From Paraniabella defluvii (lineage in GTDB: Bacteria > Bacteroidota > Bacteroidia > Chitinophagales > Chitinophagaceae): 64,000 nucleotides of DNA. The DNA is taken from contig CP079215.1 in NCBI GenBank assembly GCA_019316985.1, forward strand, positions 620,001-684,000, in the 5' to 3' direction. This document shows positions 3,813 through 14,908 of the stretch, one piece after another. Position 1 is the stretch's first letter, and each line of letters opens with the position of its first letter. Made by a program: the position numbers and the translations under genes. The notes beneath the pieces were generated by a model. That model was given only the letters and a program-made list of their open reading frames with translations, did not search any database and was not told where the DNA came from.

Positions 3813-4885
3813 TTATTGGCCGTTATAGGCGGTAACCAGCAAATGGGTCATTTCATTAATACTGGCGTAAGAGGCATCCTGGGTTAACGTATAAAAATTG
3901 GTTTTCATTATTTCTCTTAGCCGCAAATAGGTTGCGTCGGTTAAAGGGCTGCCGGGACTCCGTTCCTTCAGTGCCCGTATTAAACCATGGGCTTTGGACA
4001 AATAGTGCAATTTCGCGACCGGGTCGCTAATTTGTTTCACACTGTCCAAAGCAAACAAGGCCGATTGCGCTAAAGTAAGCTCGGTATACCCTCTTATAAC
4101 AGCTATGGAACTGGCATTAACACGGCCATCACCGGCAATAGCAGCTGCCTTTGCACGCCTGAATTCTTCATATATTTTTACCCCGGCGTTCAGATTTTTA
4201 ACTCCGGCAAAAAGTGCAGCGATACCTAATGGCCTGTTACTTCTGGGAGATCCTGAGTAATAATCCAGCTCGGGGTCGTAACTGACAGGAAAGCCCATAT
4301 AATTATATGCAAGATCCCAGCCCAGGGTAACGTTTTGACCAGGCCCTACCAGGTTACTGAAAGCATTTCGCATAAAATTGGAGCCCAACATACTATAATA
4401 CCACACTTCCTGTACCTCCATGCCATTTTCATTAAAAAGGCGTTTCCTTGCCACCGGTATAGTTTGTGTGCCAACGCCGGCAGTTCCGTTACCGGCCGTT
4501 ACTCCATAAAACCGGCTGAGAACCGCCACCGAATCGGCCAGGCTTTTCAGCGAATCTGCATCACCGGTGTTAGTCAGGTTAACCCTGATCATATTATTCA
4601 GCATTGTTTCCGAATAAACAAAATCGGGTACCATCGTCGCCGTAAACTGCCTGCCGCGGTTAAGCCACAGGAATCTACAATTGCTGTGTCTATACGCGCG
4701 TTCACCGAACCGGAAAGATAGTTATACAATCCATGCACCATAATAACGCGTGCCAGCGCAGAAGAATCATTATTCTCCTGGTTAAATACGGGCGGTACCG
4801 AATAAGCTGGTAAGAATGGCTTATTTTTTACACAGGCGGCAAAAAGCAGGGCAATAACAACAAACAGTTTAAAATGCAACTTCAT
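3813..4885 (-). CDS. Secreted lipoprotein of unknown function, one frame break
   Basis: Starts MKLHFKLFVVIALLFAAC, a lipoprotein signal with Cys at about 18; an in-frame ATG three codons upstream is an alternative start. The first part (4885 to about 4640) and the long second part (from about 4640 down) join if one base is restored near 4640, giving a protein of about 357 residues. The second half is largely helical with Tyr/Asn-rich stretches, superficially like TPR/SusD-type substrate-binding lipoproteins, but no SusC partner is next to it and I recognise no motif. The stop codon sits directly against the stop of the MutS-related gene. Function unknown. Confidence 0.6.
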
Positions 4886-8398: not shown

Positions 8399-9513
8399 CT
8401 ACTTTCTATCTCTTACACATCTGAAACCGGTATGCTCCAATCCAGTATCAGGACTGCTTTTCATACGGCGGGCTACCCGGTAGCCACTGCAATAAGAATC
8501 GTTACATAAAAAGCTGCCACCCCGCAAACTGCGCTTGGCATTATAGGGCTCCTGCGGATCATAGGATTTATCAGGCCCCTGCGGGTTCACCGTTAATTTG
8601 CCTTCCAGCTGCTGGTAATAATCATGATGATACCAATCACTGCACCATTCCCAAACATTACCCGCCATATCGTACAATCCATAACCATTAGCAGCAAAAG
8701 ACTTAACAGGCGCTGCGGTTATATAGCCATCTTTTTTTTCATTCAGGTAGGGAAATTTGCCCTCCCAGCTGTTAGCTTTGGGTGCTCCTGGCTTATATGT
8801 TCGTTTCCCCAGGGATAGATATTATTAATTAAGCCGCCTCTTGCCGCAAATTCCCACTCTGCTTCAGTGGGAAGCCTTTTACCGGCCCACTTGCAATAGG
8901 CCTGTGCATCGTCCCAGCTTACATGCACTACCGGATAATTTTCTTTCCCTTCAATACTACTGCCTGGTCCCTGAGGGTGTCTCCAGCCGGCCCCTTTTAC
9001 CCAACTCCACCACTGGTTGTAATTGTTTAAATCAACCGGCCCGCCCGACTGGTGAAATACGAGCGATGCGGCAACCAATACACTGTCAGGCGGCCGCGGG
9101 GTGCCGGGTGGTAAAGTAGCTTTTATCTCTTCCCAATCCGGCTTACGTTCCGCTGTGGTTACATAGCCGGTGGCATCTATAAATTTTTTAAACTGCGCGT
9201 TGGTCACTTCGGTTACGTCCATATAAAAAGCATCCACCTGTACCTTGTGCTTGGGATATTCATCTTCACTTGCCTGGCTATTGTCACCGCCCATATCAAA
9301 TACTCCTCCCGGTATCAGTACCATCCCCGTCAGCGAGGTATCGCCTCCAAAACTAACACCTGAAGAATCTGAAGTACCGAAGCGGGCAGGCGTTTTCATA
9401 CAGGAGTGAGCAGCATCTTTTGAAGCCTCCTGCTGTTTTTTATCATTATTACCGCAGGCTGCCAGCAAATACATTATTCCTGCCAGGCCAATAGTTTTCT
9501 TTAAAAAGCTCAT
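8399..9513 (-). CDS. Formylglycine-generating-enzyme (SUMF1-type) lipoprotein, one frame break
   Basis: N-terminal lipoprotein signal (LLAAC, Cys about 20), then a complete FGE-sulfatase domain: [71 protein letters not shown]. Near the C-terminus [10 protein letters not shown] and GFRC match the human FGE region that holds the two active-site cysteines spaced by four residues. Unlike GldJ/GldK-type paralogues, this member therefore keeps the catalytic Cys pair and may convert sulfatase Cys to formylglycine, on the outer side of a membrane. The frame breaks near 8745. No sulfatase gene is adjacent. It converges with the BtuF-like gene. Confidence 0.85.
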
Positions 9514-9580
9514 CCGATAAAAATACTGGTTTTATTAAAAAGCAATGCAAGTTTCCGTTTTATCTGCGAATAAACAAATA

Positions 9581-9605
9581 TTAGTCTATTATTTTTGTAG
9601 ACTAA
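9581..9605. promoter_or_regulatory. Palindromic operator upstream of the poly-Cys leader and cys genes
   Basis: TTAGTCTA and TAGACTAA, perfect 8-base arms separated by nine bases. The spacer carries TTTG (9594-9597), which stands 18 bases before the -7 element and so is a fitting -33 box. A protein bound here would cover the promoter. The same arms occur at 11915-11940 before the encapsulin gene. The size and placement suit a dimeric Rrf2-type (CymR/IscR-like) repressor, but no such regulator is in the window, so that is inference. Confidence 0.7.
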
Positions 9606-9615
9606 ATATAACTTC

Positions 9616-9623
9616 TATATTTG
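9616..9623 (+). promoter_or_regulatory. TAnnTTTG -7 promoter element before the poly-Cys leader
   Basis: TATATTTG is a perfect -7 consensus with a -33 TTTG 18 bases upstream. It ends four bases before the ATG of the leader peptide at 9628, so transcription probably begins at or next to that ATG. Confidence 0.65.
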
Positions 9624-9627
9624 CATT

Positions 9628-9681
9628 ATGTATATTTTGCCGGCATTTAAATCTACCTATTGTTGTTGTTGCCGCTGTTAG
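9628..9681 (+). CDS. Poly-cysteine leader peptide, 17 codons, probably leaderless
   Basis: Reads MYILPAFKSTYCCCCRC and stop. Five of the last six codons are Cys (TGT TGT TGT TGC, then CGC, then TGT). It sits directly behind a promoter and upstream of an unknown small gene, cysM and cysE. Short open frames with runs of the regulated amino acid are the hallmark of ribosome-mediated attenuation. Leaderless poly-cysteine leaders controlling sulfur genes are known from mycobacteria; I know of none described in Bacteroidetes. An imperfect stem (9696-9720) begins 14 bases after the stop. The caution is that the Cys run is also a TTG-repeat tract, and that the window has frequent indel errors. Confidence 0.55.
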   Translation: MYILPAFKSTYCCCCRC

Positions 9682-9695
9682 ACGTTTGTCCGGCA

Positions 9696-9720
9696 GCTAT
9701 TGCGTTTACAGCGTTATAGC
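9696..9720 (+). promoter_or_regulatory. Imperfect stem-loop after the poly-Cys leader
   Basis: GCTATTGCG and CGTTATAGC can pair (five pairs, one mismatch, one G-U, two pairs) around a seven-base loop. It begins 14 bases past the leader stop codon, where a ribosome stalled on the Cys codons would influence folding. There is no U-run, so if it works in attenuation it would have to be by Rho or by controlling translation of the next gene. Confidence 0.3.
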
Positions 9721-9804
9721 AAAATATCATTTCGAAAAATAACCCGCTACGTTTTAATTACCTGTAATCAATTCCATCACGGCTACCAGCCATTAAAACC
9801 TTTT

Positions 9805-10074
9805 ATGCCATTATTCTCAGCAAACATCGTATTACATTATGCGAACAAGCAGGATTTCGTTTTGTTAGATGAAGCTTTAAGATCGAATCACTTTTTGCCG
9901 GAAAATGTGCCCGGCGGCGACCTGTCTGAAACTGCAGCCCGTGAGTCTATTACTTTGCAATATCTTAAAAAGGGCAACTTAGCTTTATTGGAAGTTATCG
10001 AACTGGTGAAAAATGCGGCGTCAAAAACGGGGAAAAAATTCTCATTTACGATTTTAAAAAACAGGAATGAATAG
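9805..10074 (+). CDS. Small cytoplasmic protein of unknown function in the cysteine operon
   Basis: About 89 residues from the ATG at 9805 (MPLFSANIVLHYANKQDFV). Longer versions from upstream ATGs are possible in the same frame, but they run into the leader-stem region and look non-coding. The protein has a beta-strand start, an acidic middle (LPENVPGGDLSETAARESIT) and a basic C-terminus (KTGKKFSFTILKNRNE). No signal peptide, no Cys and no motif that I recognise. It lies between the poly-Cys leader and cysM, 80 bases before the latter, so a role linked to cysteine or sulfur is plausible but only from context. Confidence 0.6.
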   Translation: MPLFSANIVLHYANKQDFVLLDEALRSNHFLPENVPGGDLSETAARESITLQYLKKGNLALLEVIELVKNAASKTGKKFSFTILKNRNE

Positions 10075-10154
10075 TTGAAGAAAGCTGTGTTAGGTACCTG
10101 CTTACCGGTTCGGTAAAACGCCCTTCCATCTTATATTTTAATACTACAATCAAT

Positions 10155-11033
10155 ATGTCAGATATCCTGCTACAGGTGGGCAATACTCCTATTGTGCAAC
10201 TCAAAAACATACCTGCCCACCCTGATGTGCGTATTTATTGTAAACTGGAAGGCAATAATCCCGGTGGCAGTGTAAAAGACAGGGCTGCCTATGGTATGAT
10301 AAAAGGGGCTTTGGAAAGAGGTGAGCTTCAGAAAGGGCAAAAGCTGGTAGAGCCTACCAGTGGCAATACAGGTATTGCATTAGCATTAATTAGCAGCCTT
10401 TTTGGAATAGAAATAGCGCTGGTGATGCCTGAAGATGCCACCAAAGAGCGCATTGCTGCTATGAAGGCCTTTGGCGCCAAGGTGATACTAACGCCCAAAC
10501 GCAGGGCTATGGAGGGCGCTATAGACCACGCAAACGAGCTGGTAGCTACCGGCGACTATGTAATGCTGAACCAGTTTGCCAACCCGGATAACCCGGGTAT
10601 ACACTATCAAACTACGGGTCCCGAAATTTGGAAAGACACGCTGGGACAGGTTACCCATTTTGTGTCAGCAATGGGCACTACGGGCACCATTATGGGTGTA
10701 TCTCAATACCTGAAAGAGAAAAATCCTGGTATTGTTATAGCTGGTTGTCAGCCTGCCGATAACTCACAGATTCCAGGTATCAGGAAATGGCCCAAAGCCT
10801 ACATTCCCAAAATCTTTGATGCGGCAAAAATTGACCGGATTATTGAAGTAACCGAAAAACAGGCAAAAATGTTACCAAACGCCTGGCGCGAGAAGAAGGG
10901 ATTTTTGCGGCATGAGTAGCGGGGTGCAGTTCATGCGGCCCTGGAACTGGCGCAAACTCTTGATAAAGGACTTATCGTCTGCATCATTTGCGATAAGGGC
11001 GACCGCTATTTGTCATCTGAGTTATTTGATTAA
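10155..11033 (+). CDS. cysM: Cysteine synthase (CysM/CysK type), one or two frame breaks
   Basis: PLP enzyme making cysteine from O-acetylserine and sulfide (or thiosulfate). The PLP lysine is in NPGGSVKDRAA near 42, phosphate loop EPTSGNTGI near 70, and ATPK-like helix and GTTGTIMGV motif near 175. The PGIRKWP and C-terminal CDKGDRYLSSELF fit the CysM branch. The frame slips near 10865 and near 10920: one added G in a run of four gives GGAVHAALELAQTLDKG and continues to a stop at 11031-11033. Length about 293 codons, as expected. Thirty-seven bases separate it from the serine acetyltransferase, so both are likely one operon, perhaps controlled by the leader peptide. Confidence 0.9.
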
Positions 11034-11069
11034 TATATAAATAAAATACTTTAACTTTAGAAAACTGCT

Positions 11070-11909
11070 ATGAAACCGATCATTAAAGAAATGCAATTGC
11101 ATGATACTTTAAGCACCATTCATCAGAAATACCGGGGCAATCTTCAGCCTATACCGTCGAGAAGCAGTGCGCAACGTTGGATCAGGCATTTGTTAACCCA
11201 TTTATTTCCTGTACACTCTGAAGTATTTGGCCCTCTCGACATTATGAACCTGGAGTTACAATTAAGGCAATTACTTTTACCGATAGAAAACGTACTGACT
11301 GATGTAGATAAGCTAGTTGACCGCTTTTTCAGGCGAATACCAGATATCTTTATTGAACTGCAGGAGGACGCACAAAACATACTGGCCTTCGACCCGGCCG
11401 CTCATTCTATTGAAGAAATACTGGGTGCGTATCCCGGATTTTACGCTGTGGCGGTATACCGGTTTTCCCACGAACTCTATCAATTAAAAATTCCGGTACT
11501 GCCGCGGCTTTTATCTGAATATGCGCATAGCGTTACCGGCATTGATATTAATCCCGGCGCAATAATCGGCTCTACATTTTTTATCGATCATGGCACGGGT
11601 GTGGTGATCGGCGAAACCTGCGTGATCGGCAACAATGTAAAGATATACCAGGGCGTTACCCTGGGCGCTCTAAATGTTTCCAAAACACAGGCACATATAA
11701 AACGCCACCCTACTATCGAAGATAATGTTGTAATATACTCGGGATCTACTATACTGGGAGGTAAAACCGTAATAGGACATGACTCTATTATCGGCGGTAA
11801 TGTATGGCTTACCGAAACAGTTCCTCCCTATTCACTGGTATACCACAAGAGTGAAGTGCGGGTGCGATCGAATCGCGACATTGACGAAGGGCTCAATTTT
11901 TCGATATAA
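11070..11909 (+). CDS. cysE: Serine O-acetyltransferase CysE/EpsC type
   Basis: Intact 279-residue enzyme that acetylates serine to give the substrate of cysteine synthase. The C-terminal half is a left-handed beta helix built of hexapeptide repeats (INPGAIIGSTFFIDHGTGVV and onwards), with the active-site DHGTG and the KRHPTIEDNVVIYSG loop typical of SAT. The N-terminal helical domain (1-130) is long, as in the EpsC group of Bacteroidetes. It follows cysM in the same direction. The encapsulin gene begins 77 bases downstream, with its own promoter and operator in between. Confidence 0.93.
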   Translation: MKPIIKEMQLHDTLSTIHQKYRGNLQPIPSRSSAQRWIRHLLTHLFPVHSEVFGPLDIMNLELQLRQLLLPIENVLTDVDKLVDRFFRRIPDIFIELQEDAQNILAFDPAAHSIEEILGAYPGFYAVAVYRFSHELYQLKIPVLPRLLSEYAHSVTGIDINPGAIIGSTFFIDHGTGVVIGETCVIGNNVKIYQGVTLGALNVSKTQAHIKRHPTIEDNVVIYSGSTILGGKTVIGHDSIIGGNVWLTETVPPYSLVYHKSEVRVRSNRDIDEGLNFSI

Positions 11910-11914
11910 CATCA

Positions 11915-11940
11915 ATTAGTCTATCTTTTTATAGACTAAT
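11915..11940. promoter_or_regulatory. Palindromic operator before the encapsulin gene
   Basis: ATTAGTCTAT and ATAGACTAAT are perfect 10-base arms around CTTTTT. The inner eight bases of each arm are the same as in the site at 9581-9605; the arm spacing differs by one base. It lies 12 bases upstream of the -7 element, so it covers the -33 region. The shared site suggests that one regulator controls both the cysteine-synthesis and the encapsulin transcription units. Confidence 0.75.
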
Positions 11941-11952
11941 TATTTTTTCTAA

Positions 11953-11960
11953 TATATTTG
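11953..11960 (+). promoter_or_regulatory. TAnnTTTG -7 promoter element of the encapsulin gene
   Basis: TATATTTG, perfect -7 consensus, 26 bases before the ATG at 11987. The -33 region lies inside the palindrome. Unlike the cys leader promoter, this one leaves a short 5' leader of about 20 bases. Confidence 0.65.
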
Positions 11961-11986
11961 TGCGATAACTTTTAAAAAACTAGATC

Positions 11987-12912
11987 ATGGCTGAATCAAA
12001 AACCCAACAACAAACTGCCCTTGGCGACGTAGCAGCACGGCAGCTCGCAATTGCTACCCGTACAGTACCCCAAATGGTTACCATTTCACCCCGCTGGTTA
12101 ACCCGCCTGCTGAACTGGGTACCGGTGGAGTCTGGGGTATACCGGCTCAACAAAGTAAAAAATGCGACGCAGATAGAAGTAGACTGTTCTTCACGCGACG
12201 AGAAAATTTTACCACAGACTTTTGTTGACTATGTTGAGAATCCCAGGGAGTATAACCTGGCAGCAGTACAAACCATTGTAGATGTACATACGAGGGTTTC
12301 TGATTTATATAGCAAACCCTACAACCAGATCTCTGAACAGTTAAGGCTGGCCATCGAAACCATTAAAGAAAGACAGGAAAGCGAACTGATCAATAATGCC
12401 AACTATGGCTTATTGCATAGCGTACCCGGTGAGCAAAGAGTTAAAACACGCACCGGCGCACCAACCCCGACGACCTAGATGAATTAATTGCCAAAGTATG
12501 GAAAGAACCCGGATTTTTCCTGCTTCACCCATTGGCTATTGCTGCCTTTGGAAGGGAATGTACCCGCCGTGGGGTTCCGCCTCCTACTATTTCTCTTTTT
12601 GGCTCTCAATTTATTACCTGGAGAGGCATTCCATTGATCCCTTCTGATAAAGTGCCGATAGTAAAAGGAAAAACCAAGGTCATTCTGTTACGTACCGGTG
12701 AAAGCCGCCAGGGTGTGGTAGGCCTTTTTCAACCGGGCCTGCAGGGAGAACAGACACCAGGACTATCCGTACGTTTTATGGGTATTAACGAAAAGGCTAT
12801 TGCATCTTACCTGGTTTCATTGTACTGTTCATTGGCAGTATTAGTAGACGATGCGATTGCCGTATTAGATGACGTTGAAATAGGAAATTATCATGAGTAC
12901 AAATACCAGTAA
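11987..12912 (+). CDS. srpI: Family 2A encapsulin shell protein (SrpI/MMPI-like), one frame break
   Basis: Shell protein of a sulfur-related nanocompartment. Family 2A members have an extended N-terminal arm and an HK97-like fold of about 310 residues; this reads about 308. Recognisable segments are LGDVAARQLAIATRTVPQM, ISPRWLTRLLNWVPVE, the GVYRLNK beta strand, FLLHPLAIAAFGRECTRRG, and the C-terminal RFMGINEKAIASYLVSLYCS. The frame breaks near 12470, where one more C in a run of four turns PTPTT-stop into PTPDDLDELIAKVW. The gene overlaps the start of the next gene by 20 bases, which is a cysteine desulfurase with an unstructured N-terminus, the established cargo of family 2A shells. Upstream operator suggests sulfur- or cysteine-dependent expression. 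Confidence 0.9.
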
Positions 12913-14857
12913 TCTTCCGGATGTGCAAGAGTTGCAACGTATCGCCAACCAACTCTTTAAAGCATTACCGGAAGAAGCTCCTAAAGAAATATCCCTGGAC
13001 CCTTATAAGCATCCGCGTGCTGCAGCCCTTGCACAATCTGTAAGCGGCGGGGGCAACCCTGCCATTGGGCTTCTTTTCGAATGGCCTGGCTCCACAGGAG
13101 ATAACCCAGCCCACCGCATCACCGGTATCTCCTGCGGGAGTACTAGCCACCCCGCCGTCGTTGGCTGGTGCAGGCATTTCAACTCCTGGGGTACCGGGTG
13201 TCAACCAGGACCATTTCAAGCCCGGTTTCAATCTGGCTGGGATAGATTATACACCGGGCAACAGCTCTTACATCCAGGATCATAACGATAAAAAGGCGTT
13301 TCATAATGGCCAGGTACCTGCTTCTGTGGCGGGCAGCGGGGCTTCTCCCTCGTACACCCATCAACAGAATAATTTCGACCTGAAAGAGCCTGTTACCAGC
13401 TTCCCGGACGCAAGCATTGATAAACCTACGGCGCACACCGATCCATTTGCCTTATCTTTTATTGATGAACAACCTTATTGGTCAGACATCAGCGCTATAC
13501 TGGGAACGCTCAATAACAACATCCTACCAGATACATTGCTACAGCCTTCACAACACCCGATTGAGCAGGCAGGGCCTTCTTTTTATTTTTTGCAACACAG
13601 TCCACACCCATTCAACAGTCTACCCCGGGAGCATTCCATCACACTTTTGACGCTTACAAAATCAAAAAGATTTTGATACTGAACGAAAAGGTCAACGGCA
13701 AAAACCTGGTTTGGCTGGACAATGCAGCTACCACGCAAAAGCCGCAGTCTGTAATTGACCGGATCAGCTATTTTTACCAGCACGAAAATTCTAACATTCA
13801 TCGCGCAGCGCATGAGCTGGCAGCGCGTGCTACCGATGCCTATGAAGCGGCAAGAAAAAAAGTGCAACAATTTCTGGGTGCCGGGTCTGTTAACGAAATC
13901 ATTTTCGTTCGTGGCGCTACGGAGGGCATTAATCTTGTTGCTCAAAGCTGGGGCGCGCAGCATTTAAAGAGTGGTGATGAAATTATCGTCAGCAATCTGG
14001 AGCATCATGCCAATATCGTTCCCTGGAAAAGATTGGCAGATAAAAGGGGACTTACCTTAAAAGTTATTCCGGTTGATGATGACGGGCAGATACTCCTTGA
14101 TGAATATGCCAAATTATTGACATCCCGTACACGACTGGTAGCATTCACACAGGTATCCAACGCTTTAGGAACCATTACCCCGGCAGAACAGATCATAGCA
14201 TTAGCGCACAATGCCGGGGCAAAGGTTCTGGTTGACGGAGCACAGTCTGTATCCCACATGCCTGTAAATGTACAGGCACTGGACGCCGATTGGTTTGTGT
14301 TCTCAGGCCATAAGGTTTTTGGGCCAACCGGTATTGGCGTAGTATACGGCAAAGAAGACATTTTAAATGAAACGGAACCCTGGCAAGGTGGTGGCAATAT
14401 GATCCAGGACGTTACATTTGAAGAGATCAGGTATCACAAAGCACCTAACCGTTTTGAAGCCGGCACAGGCAATATTGCGGATGCCGTTGGTCTCGGCGCA
14501 GCTATCGATTATGTAACACAACTGGGCATGACCAATATAGGCGCCTATGAACATGCATTGCTGGAATATGCAACGCATCAGTTAAAGCAGGTGCCTGGTG
14601 TGCGGCTCATTGGTACAGCAGCTAACAAGGCCAGCGTATTATCCTTTATATTAAAGGGTTACTCCAACGATGATGTAGGCAAGGCCTTAAACCAGGAAGG
14701 CATAGCTGTAAGAACCGGGCATCATTGTGCGCAGCCTATTTTACGCAGAATGAGAGTAGAAACTACCGTGAGACCGTCATTGGCATTTTATAATACCTGC
14801 GAAGATGTAGACCGGCTTGTTGCAGTAGTAAGCCGCTTAGCCTCATCTCAATATTGA
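12893..14857 (+). CDS. Encapsulin cargo: SufS-like cysteine desulfurase with long disordered N-terminal domain
   Basis: Residues about 1-255 are Pro/Gly/Ser-rich and low in structure (PTASPVSPAGVLATPPSL and similar), with short ordered islands. This matches the encapsulation domain of family 2A cargo. The rest (about 400 residues) is a group II cysteine desulfurase: start LVWLDNAATTQKPQ, PLP lysine in SGHKVFGPTGIG, catalytic Cys in RTGHHCAQP. It takes sulfur from cysteine, and in family 2A systems the released sulfur is stored as elemental sulfur inside the shell. The start at 12893 (MSTNTSNLPDVQEL) lies inside the end of the shell gene, suggesting translational coupling. Frame slips occur near 13070 (G runs) and between 13560 and 13670; the disordered part is otherwise continuous. 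About 654 codons in total. Confidence 0.88.
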
Positions 14858-14886
14858 TTTTACTGTTTATTGTTGTTTTACATGAG

Positions 14887-14908
14887 AAGGGCCGTTTTAC
14901 GGCCTTTT
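14887..14908 (+). terminator. Rho-independent-like terminator after the desulfurase gene
   Basis: GGCCG-TTTTA-CGGCC, extended by A-T pairs, followed by TTTT. It lies 30 bases after the desulfurase stop and closes the encapsulin transcription unit. Confidence 0.65.

Follow-up and report, generated by a model that had tools for sequence, protein, structure and literature searches.

The window analysed here, a 64,000-nucleotide stretch of the genome of Paraniabella defluvii (Chitinophagaceae), holds a short open reading frame (ORF) that ends in a run of cysteine codons and lies upstream of cysM- and cysE-like genes. This arrangement raises the question of whether the frame encodes a leader peptide through which the cell senses cysteine and, if so, how such a peptide might control the genes behind it. 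For mycobacteria and other Actinobacteria, poly-cysteine leaders without terminators have been predicted upstream of cys operons, with Rho and a tna-like mechanism suggested for them (Seliverstov 2005, PMC1262725, in excerpt), and a poly-cysteine leader has been shown in M. smegmatis (Canestrari 2020, as cited in excerpts of PMC9094748, PMC9031893 and PMC13236596). Among the literature matches listed, in which subscription journals are thinly covered, none concerns a poly-cysteine leader in Bacteroidota.

The leader and its locus

The features of the locus are as follows.

8743–9513, minus strand: sulfatase-modifying-factor-like (FGE) gene, pointing away from the leader on the other side of the palindrome
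9581–9605: 25-bp palindromic operator, TTAGTCTA-N9-TAGACTAA, perfect, with the −33 element TTTG (9594–9597) in its centre
9616–9623, plus strand: −7 promoter element TATATTTG, 18 nt 3' of the −33 TTTG; its spacing to the ATG is the same in three orthologues
9628–9681, plus strand: poly-cysteine leader ORF MYILPAFKSTYCCCCRC, up to and including its stop codon; predicted leaderless
9661–9678, plus strand: Cys codons TGT TGT TGT TGC (CGC) TGT, the proposed stall site; YCCCC is invariant in three orthologues
9696–9720 (our own count), plus strand: stem-loop GCTATTGCGTTTACAGCGTTATAGC, 14 nt past the leader stop; not conserved in two orthologues
9805–10074, plus strand: ORF of 89 aa, the first gene past the leader; no Pfam match
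10155–10919, plus strand: cysM-like cysteine synthase (Pfam PALP); the frame ends early
11070–11909, plus strand: cysE-like serine acetyltransferase (Pfam hexapeptide repeats; name inferred)
11916–11939: another palindrome (spacer of 8 nt) upstream of the encapsulin gene, with TATATTTG behind it and no visible Cys leader
11987–12912, plus strand: type 2A (SrpI-like) encapsulin shell, in two frames
13673–14857, plus strand: SufS-like cysteine desulfurase, likely the encapsulin cargo

The poly-cysteine leader at 9628–9681 is confirmed as an observation. The first-pass annotation had placed its ATG four bases behind a perfect −7 element and counted five Cys codons among its last six, and both statements hold: TATATTTG occupies 9616–9623 (the −7 consensus is TAnnTTTG), the gap to the ATG is 4 nt, and Cys takes five of the last six sense codons. 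The stem that it described 14 nt past the stop is present as well, yet the whole leader RNA at this locus folds about as its shuffles do (z between −0.41 and 0.05 in two computations), and the sequence of the 9696–9720 stem is kept in neither of two orthologues. A search of positions 8400–14,900 against Rfam at the gathering cut-off returned no match.

Comparison within the genus shows which parts of the locus are maintained. The 89-aa gene is present in three of the 17 same-genus genomes searched, and all three keep the leader, with Cys codons at the place where the first-pass annotation would expect them in relatives. Palindrome, TATATTTG, 4-nt gap and ATG are common to the three loci, the palindrome having one mismatch in genome G536, and the −33 TTTG is absent in the orthologue from G119 (locus L110). 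The three leaders read MYILPAFKSTYCCCCRC, MTISLASKHTYCCCCGPSF and MNILLAFTPLYCCCCC; YCCCC is invariant, codon differences within it are confined to the third base (TGT/TGC), and the flanks drift. The FGE gene is divergent across the palindrome in G119 and G536 also. In G536 the leader copy is followed by cysM and cysE, and the 5 kb read in G119 yielded no cysM. The region just 5' of the 89-aa gene is well conserved in the three genomes. At positions 9780–9805 of the window, GGCTAYCAGCC or a close form, then a T-run, stands directly before the 89-aa start, and this arrangement is conserved in the three orthologues.

The first-pass annotation had set the leader before cysM-cysE. Both genes are indeed downstream, although the first gene is the 89-aa ORF and the cysM- and cysE-like genes come after it. 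Because the encapsulin gene has its own palindrome and TATATTTG, the leader would most directly govern the 89-aa gene, cysM and cysE, and the encapsulin and desulfurase genes may have a controlled promoter of their own at 11916–11939. The pairing of encapsulin with desulfurase is already known (PMC8049743 and PMC8346489, in excerpt), and an SrpI encapsulin is raised under sulfur starvation in a cyanobacterium (PMC8049743, in excerpt). Bacteroidota are among the nearest named relatives of the desulfurase, with Niabella, Niastella, Flavobacterium and Mucilaginibacter as examples. Apparent frame breaks divide both the cysM-like gene and the encapsulin gene; since the genome, a 6.13-Mb contig with broken frames, is by estimate 72% complete, these breaks are as likely to be assembly errors as pseudogenes.

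Recurrence behind a palindromic operator

A degenerate form of the palindrome occurs in 36 of 147 family genomes, against two of 147 for the reversed pattern. In the P. defluvii genome its degenerate exact form is found six times and that of the reversed control not at all; with up to three mismatches the palindrome is no commoner than the control (25 against 29), so that only the stricter form stands out in this genome. With at most two mismatches there are 12 palindromes, seven of which are followed by a short ORF ending in a Cys run. Across the phylum, 13 of 395 genomes hold the palindrome, against four of 395 for the reversed control; seven of the 13 are outside the family, and their eight loci lack a three-Cys run, some having short ORFs with CC.

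Cys-terminated ORFs are strongly enriched behind these palindromes. An ATG-initiated ORF with at least three Cys in its last eight residues, starting no more than 330 nt past the palindrome, was found in 20 of 122 palindrome directions, where shuffles gave a mean of 0.78 and a largest count of four among 200. Two of the 20 represent a single leader preceded by paired palindromes (L105), and one, at L123 in the minus direction, looks like chance. At a threshold of four or more Cys the count is eight of 122, against 0.05 by shuffling. When other residues were counted in the same way, Leu gave 18 and each remaining residue 0 to 7 at the lower threshold, and no residue other than Cys exceeded three at the higher. 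Gene-upstream windows without a palindrome contain a Cys-ending ATG ORF in 7 of 252 cases, and this, together with the shuffle mean, argues that the class of leaders is not a product of chance. MYILPAFKSTYCCCCRC itself is not a chance ORF. A wider rule (ATG, GTG or TTG start, three Cys in the last ten residues) makes 23 of the 122 directions positive; about 100 have no Cys leader even by this rule, and half of these are presumably not transcribed.

There are 21 runs of at least three TGY codons downstream of palindromes, and an in-frame start precedes 19 of these. An in-frame stop follows at a distance of no more than two codons in 16 of the 21, against three and four in the other frames and at most three on the opposite strand. 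Judged by their sequences, the short ORFs look translated in the Cys frame.

The leaders also emerge when genes are chosen by protein alone. PhyH-like proteins, picked by sequence, gave 42 places in 38 of 147 genomes, and 30 loci were read. All nine of the closest homologues in these 30 loci (the best-scoring, with at least 60% identity, own genome included) have a Cys-run leader upstream, seven of them found by script and two read in overlapping loci; the script missed L223 on account of a displaced start (read in L056) and L229 on account of one extra gene (read in L025). Among the other 21 loci, L240 carries a chance-looking ORF only and L237 gave no frame; for L241 and L250 the distance was taken from the start of the neighbouring gene. 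A distant PhyH gene behind a palindrome, at L126, has no Cys leader. A PhyH-like dioxygenase gene, mostly followed by a short-chain dehydrogenase gene, is the operon most tightly tied to poly-cysteine leaders (L097, L125, L027, L025, L109), and the dioxygenase may act on a sulfur source.

Other genes behind the leaders are cysM-cysE, those of TonB/SusC-D receptors (with rhodanese or metallo-beta-lactamase-rhodanese genes near two such loci), and those of fatty-acid-hydroxylase-like and fasciclin proteins. Palindromes without a leader precede genes for a protein with NAD_binding_7 and TauE, which we take to be siroheme-synthase-like, a Cys/Met PLP enzyme and thioredoxin-like proteins; several other palindrome-linked genes have no evident sulfur role, among them those for a cupin, DUF2490, a LigB-like enzyme and a HAD hydrolase. 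We see a sulfur regulon behind the palindrome in outline only, and for the TonB/SusC-D and PhyH genes, which often come first after a leader, we infer a sulfur role. A search of the P. defluvii genome for Rrf2-family genes gave four matches, two of which are pieces of one place. The Rrf2-family gene at 887 kb (L056:3340-3651) lies about 3 kb from a palindrome and a PhyH leader; by eye we take its Cys residues to be NsrR-like, and the adjoining ORF is presumably truncated-globin-like. A literature search for such a regulon found no match.

The anatomy of the leaders was compared in a set of 26, made up of 22 plus four additions (L217, L226, L227, L230), in which orthologous pairs were kept, so that counts from it are not fully independent. 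Of the entries given by the wider rule, four were left out, namely L070, the minus-direction ORF at L123, the second of the L082 ORFs and one L105 entry of two; L053 was re-started at its ATG, and L037 and L041 were included, their palindromes having one and two mismatches. The leader at L023 (MNQYFLATRFYTCQERCCIR) stands outside the count. The last Cys lies 0–5 codons before the stop, and 0–1 in 21 of the 26; the longest Cys run is 2–5, with L111 at 2. For 22 leaders the −7 box was placed relative to the palindrome: in eight it lies at +35 to +37, counted from the start of the palindrome, which then covers −33; in seven it lies at −4 and the palindrome overlaps −7; two have other layouts, and five have no box.

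Box-to-start spacing bears on the claim of the first-pass annotation that the leader is leaderless. A 4-nt spacing occurs in four of the 26 leaders (L034, L110, L027 and L217; 22 leaders scored by script and four by eye), which are for this reason likely leaderless. The remaining leaders with a recognisable box start 14–65 nt behind it, and on this evidence leaderlessness would not define the class: the claim suits MYILPAFKSTYCCCCRC, its two orthologues and L027, and does not appear to extend further. The leaders before SusC-type genes at L050, L052, L053, L099 and L123 have in common AACCACC and a nearby CAGC before the ATG, in four of the five followed by ATCTAAACTAAA, and some of their downstream stretches are by eye complementary to this 5' element.

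Such leaders were found in one family, the Chitinophagaceae, and in one Mucilaginibacter MAG. A class-wide pattern of four Cys codons and a stop matched 178 of 295 genomes; of the 30 class-wide loci listed, all outside the family, none passes the leader filter, and each match in them overlaps an open frame of more than 100 codons. Of the attenuator that the first-pass annotation called independently evolved or ancient, the distribution over the loci read would favour a local origin. A scan of 80 named desulfurase loci, none with a palindrome found, gave 14 rows, one from Bacteroidota (L203), five mycobacterial and the rest chance-looking. At L203, in the Mucilaginibacter MAG, the leader MKTDFTLKALFPNLHTTCCCCCC (minus strand, near 4134) precedes a SusC-like-looking ORF of 1051 aa and has at most a degraded palindrome. 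The mycobacterial encapsulin-desulfurase loci (L189, L194, L195, L197, L208) carry short poly-cysteine ORFs on the opposite strand, one ending in CCCCRCC, which are of the known actinobacterial kind. Of 11 relatives chosen for their encapsulin gene, only three (L023, L025, L027) have a leader-like ORF near it. Neither a palindrome nor a Cys leader was seen at L136, L146 and L147, which are loci from Niabella and Niastella. Encapsulin is not a fixed partner of the leaders.

Proposed action of the leader and competing readings

We propose that MYILPAFKSTYCCCCRC is probably a cis-acting, cysteine-sensing leader peptide of an operator-linked class, one that may gate Rho. As long as Cys-tRNA is abundant, ribosomes would translate the leader to its end and dissociate, and the exposed RNA, rich in C and poor in G, would let Rho end transcription. 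Under a shortage of Cys-tRNA, a ribosome waiting at the last Cys codons would cover the RNA just past the stop, Rho loading would be blocked, and the 89-aa gene, cysM and cysE would be transcribed. At this promoter the palindrome would contribute a further layer of control, through a transcription factor. The Rho step, taken by itself, is close to an even call and leans slightly against.

Base composition past the stop bears on this step. In the 60 nt that follow, C minus G is +6.9 in the 26 leaders and positive in 25 of them, against +0.26 in 101 palindrome directions that have no leader (p = 4e-7); the value for the 22 leaders is +6.4, against +0.5 in 161 gene-upstream stretches. Past the stop of MYILPAFKSTYCCCCRC it is 0, which makes the Rho argument weakest at the leader of the window itself; at the orthologue L110 it is +9. 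Rho is encoded in the genome, and terminal Cys codons set against the stop, with a rut-like stretch behind, would suit a tnaC-like gate. That the whole family carries a two-layer sulfur regulon, in which the operator sets initiation at many operons for sulfur and for outer-membrane uptake and many transcripts, those of TonB/SusC-D genes included, begin with a Rho-gating poly-cysteine leader, is a bolder suggestion, for which we consider the chances somewhat unfavourable.

The main rival is translational attenuation, in which pausing on the Cys codons would alter a fold that blocks the start of the first gene, with no termination involved. In mycobacteria, Cys leaders have been described as acting by attenuation of translation (PMC9031893 and PMC13236596, in excerpt), the conserved stretch before the 89-aa gene in three genomes, GGCTAYCAGCC included, could belong to such a fold, and three leaders fold well (z of −3.1 at L050 and −2.9 at both L119 and L100). 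Complementary 5' and 3' stretches can be read by eye in L050, L052, L119 and L123. However, z is −1.9 or weaker in 19 of 22 leaders, most of which fold no better than their shuffles, no common structure is seen, and the distance from leader to gene varies from 45 to 260 nt, with 666 nt at L119. Single folds and the three-sequence alignment gave no conserved RNA fold. We therefore regard this reading as a serious one that is nonetheless unlikely. Classical attenuation by an intrinsic terminator and an antiterminator has a parallel in the Rhodobacterales cysS leader with its tandem Cys codons (PMC8632094, in excerpt), but a hairpin with a T-run lies near only three of 22 leaders, all of them weak and none at MYILPAFKSTYCCCCRC. 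The trp-type intrinsic-terminator model was dropped on these counts, and we judge it very improbable.

Were the short ORFs working Cys-rich small proteins that bind metal or act in redox reactions, they would be expected to look translated in the Cys frame, as they do; yet non-orthologous leaders have by eye little in common beyond the terminal Cys run, their lengths range from 11 to 54 residues, and they sit between operator and operon, and this reading is likewise very improbable. A protein that reads the UGU-rich stretch as an RNA or DNA motif, the Cys reading being incidental, would account for the preference for TGT over TGC (84 to 27 codons in the 26 leaders), but the runs end near a stop mainly in the Cys frame and third-base changes are tolerated, which leaves it a slender prospect. 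That the Cys run arose by chance, with the palindrome and its regulator doing all the control, agrees with the many palindrome directions without a Cys leader; it is hardly credible, since Cys leaders exceed what shuffles and gene-upstream controls give and stand before each of the nine closest PhyH operons.

Relation to known leaders and implications

The actinobacterial leaders, as described in excerpts of the literature, resemble those found here: they are short ORFs placed ahead of cys operons, with Cys codons in a run close to the stop and no conserved terminator. They differ in phylum, in promoter type and in the palindromic operator present here; most of the leaders here are predicted not to be leaderless, and they also stand before TonB/SusC-D, PhyH-SDR and other operons. 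In the uORFC-8-2 motif upstream of cysS in Rhodobacterales, the Cys codons of a short ORF are presumed to sense Cys-tRNA (PMC8632094, in excerpt); its two Cys codons lie within stems and it has an intrinsic terminator, neither of which was found consistently here.

Escherichia coli tnaC offers a likeness to the proposed gate, since a ribosome halted at the leader end hides a Rho-loading site beside the stop. In tnaC the stall occurs when tryptophan is high and depends on the nascent peptide, whereas here hungry Cys codons would cause it when cysteine is low. The cys leaders have been likened to tna before (PMC1262725, in excerpt). Within Bacteroidota, leader-peptide attenuation is suspected in Flavobacterium psychrophilum and Bacteroides thetaiotaomicron (PMC9723704 and PMC7366714, in excerpt), and the excerpts of these two papers name no Cys leader.

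The first-pass annotation proposed a cysteine attenuator in Bacteroidota, and a putative cysteine-sensing leader peptide before a cysteine operon has good support from its recurrence, from the conservation of its codons and from the genes around it; its leaderlessness appears not to be general. That proposal was mostly right, with the further correction that the leader would be one level of control within a regulon recognisable by its palindromic operator. In Bacteroidota, translation mostly starts without Shine-Dalgarno pairing, and the 26 leaders represent natural variants for the study of leader-peptide function without Shine-Dalgarno starts or terminators. The operator sequence, in turn, provides a handle for searching a sulfur regulon, and the PhyH-SDR and TonB/SusC-D genes of unknown substrate are hinted to serve sulfur supply. 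If our reading is true, one more phylum would join the few that sense cysteine by leader peptides; if the two-layer reading is true, an amino-acid-starvation, tnaC-like switch would operate across a regulon that includes TonB/SusC-D uptake.
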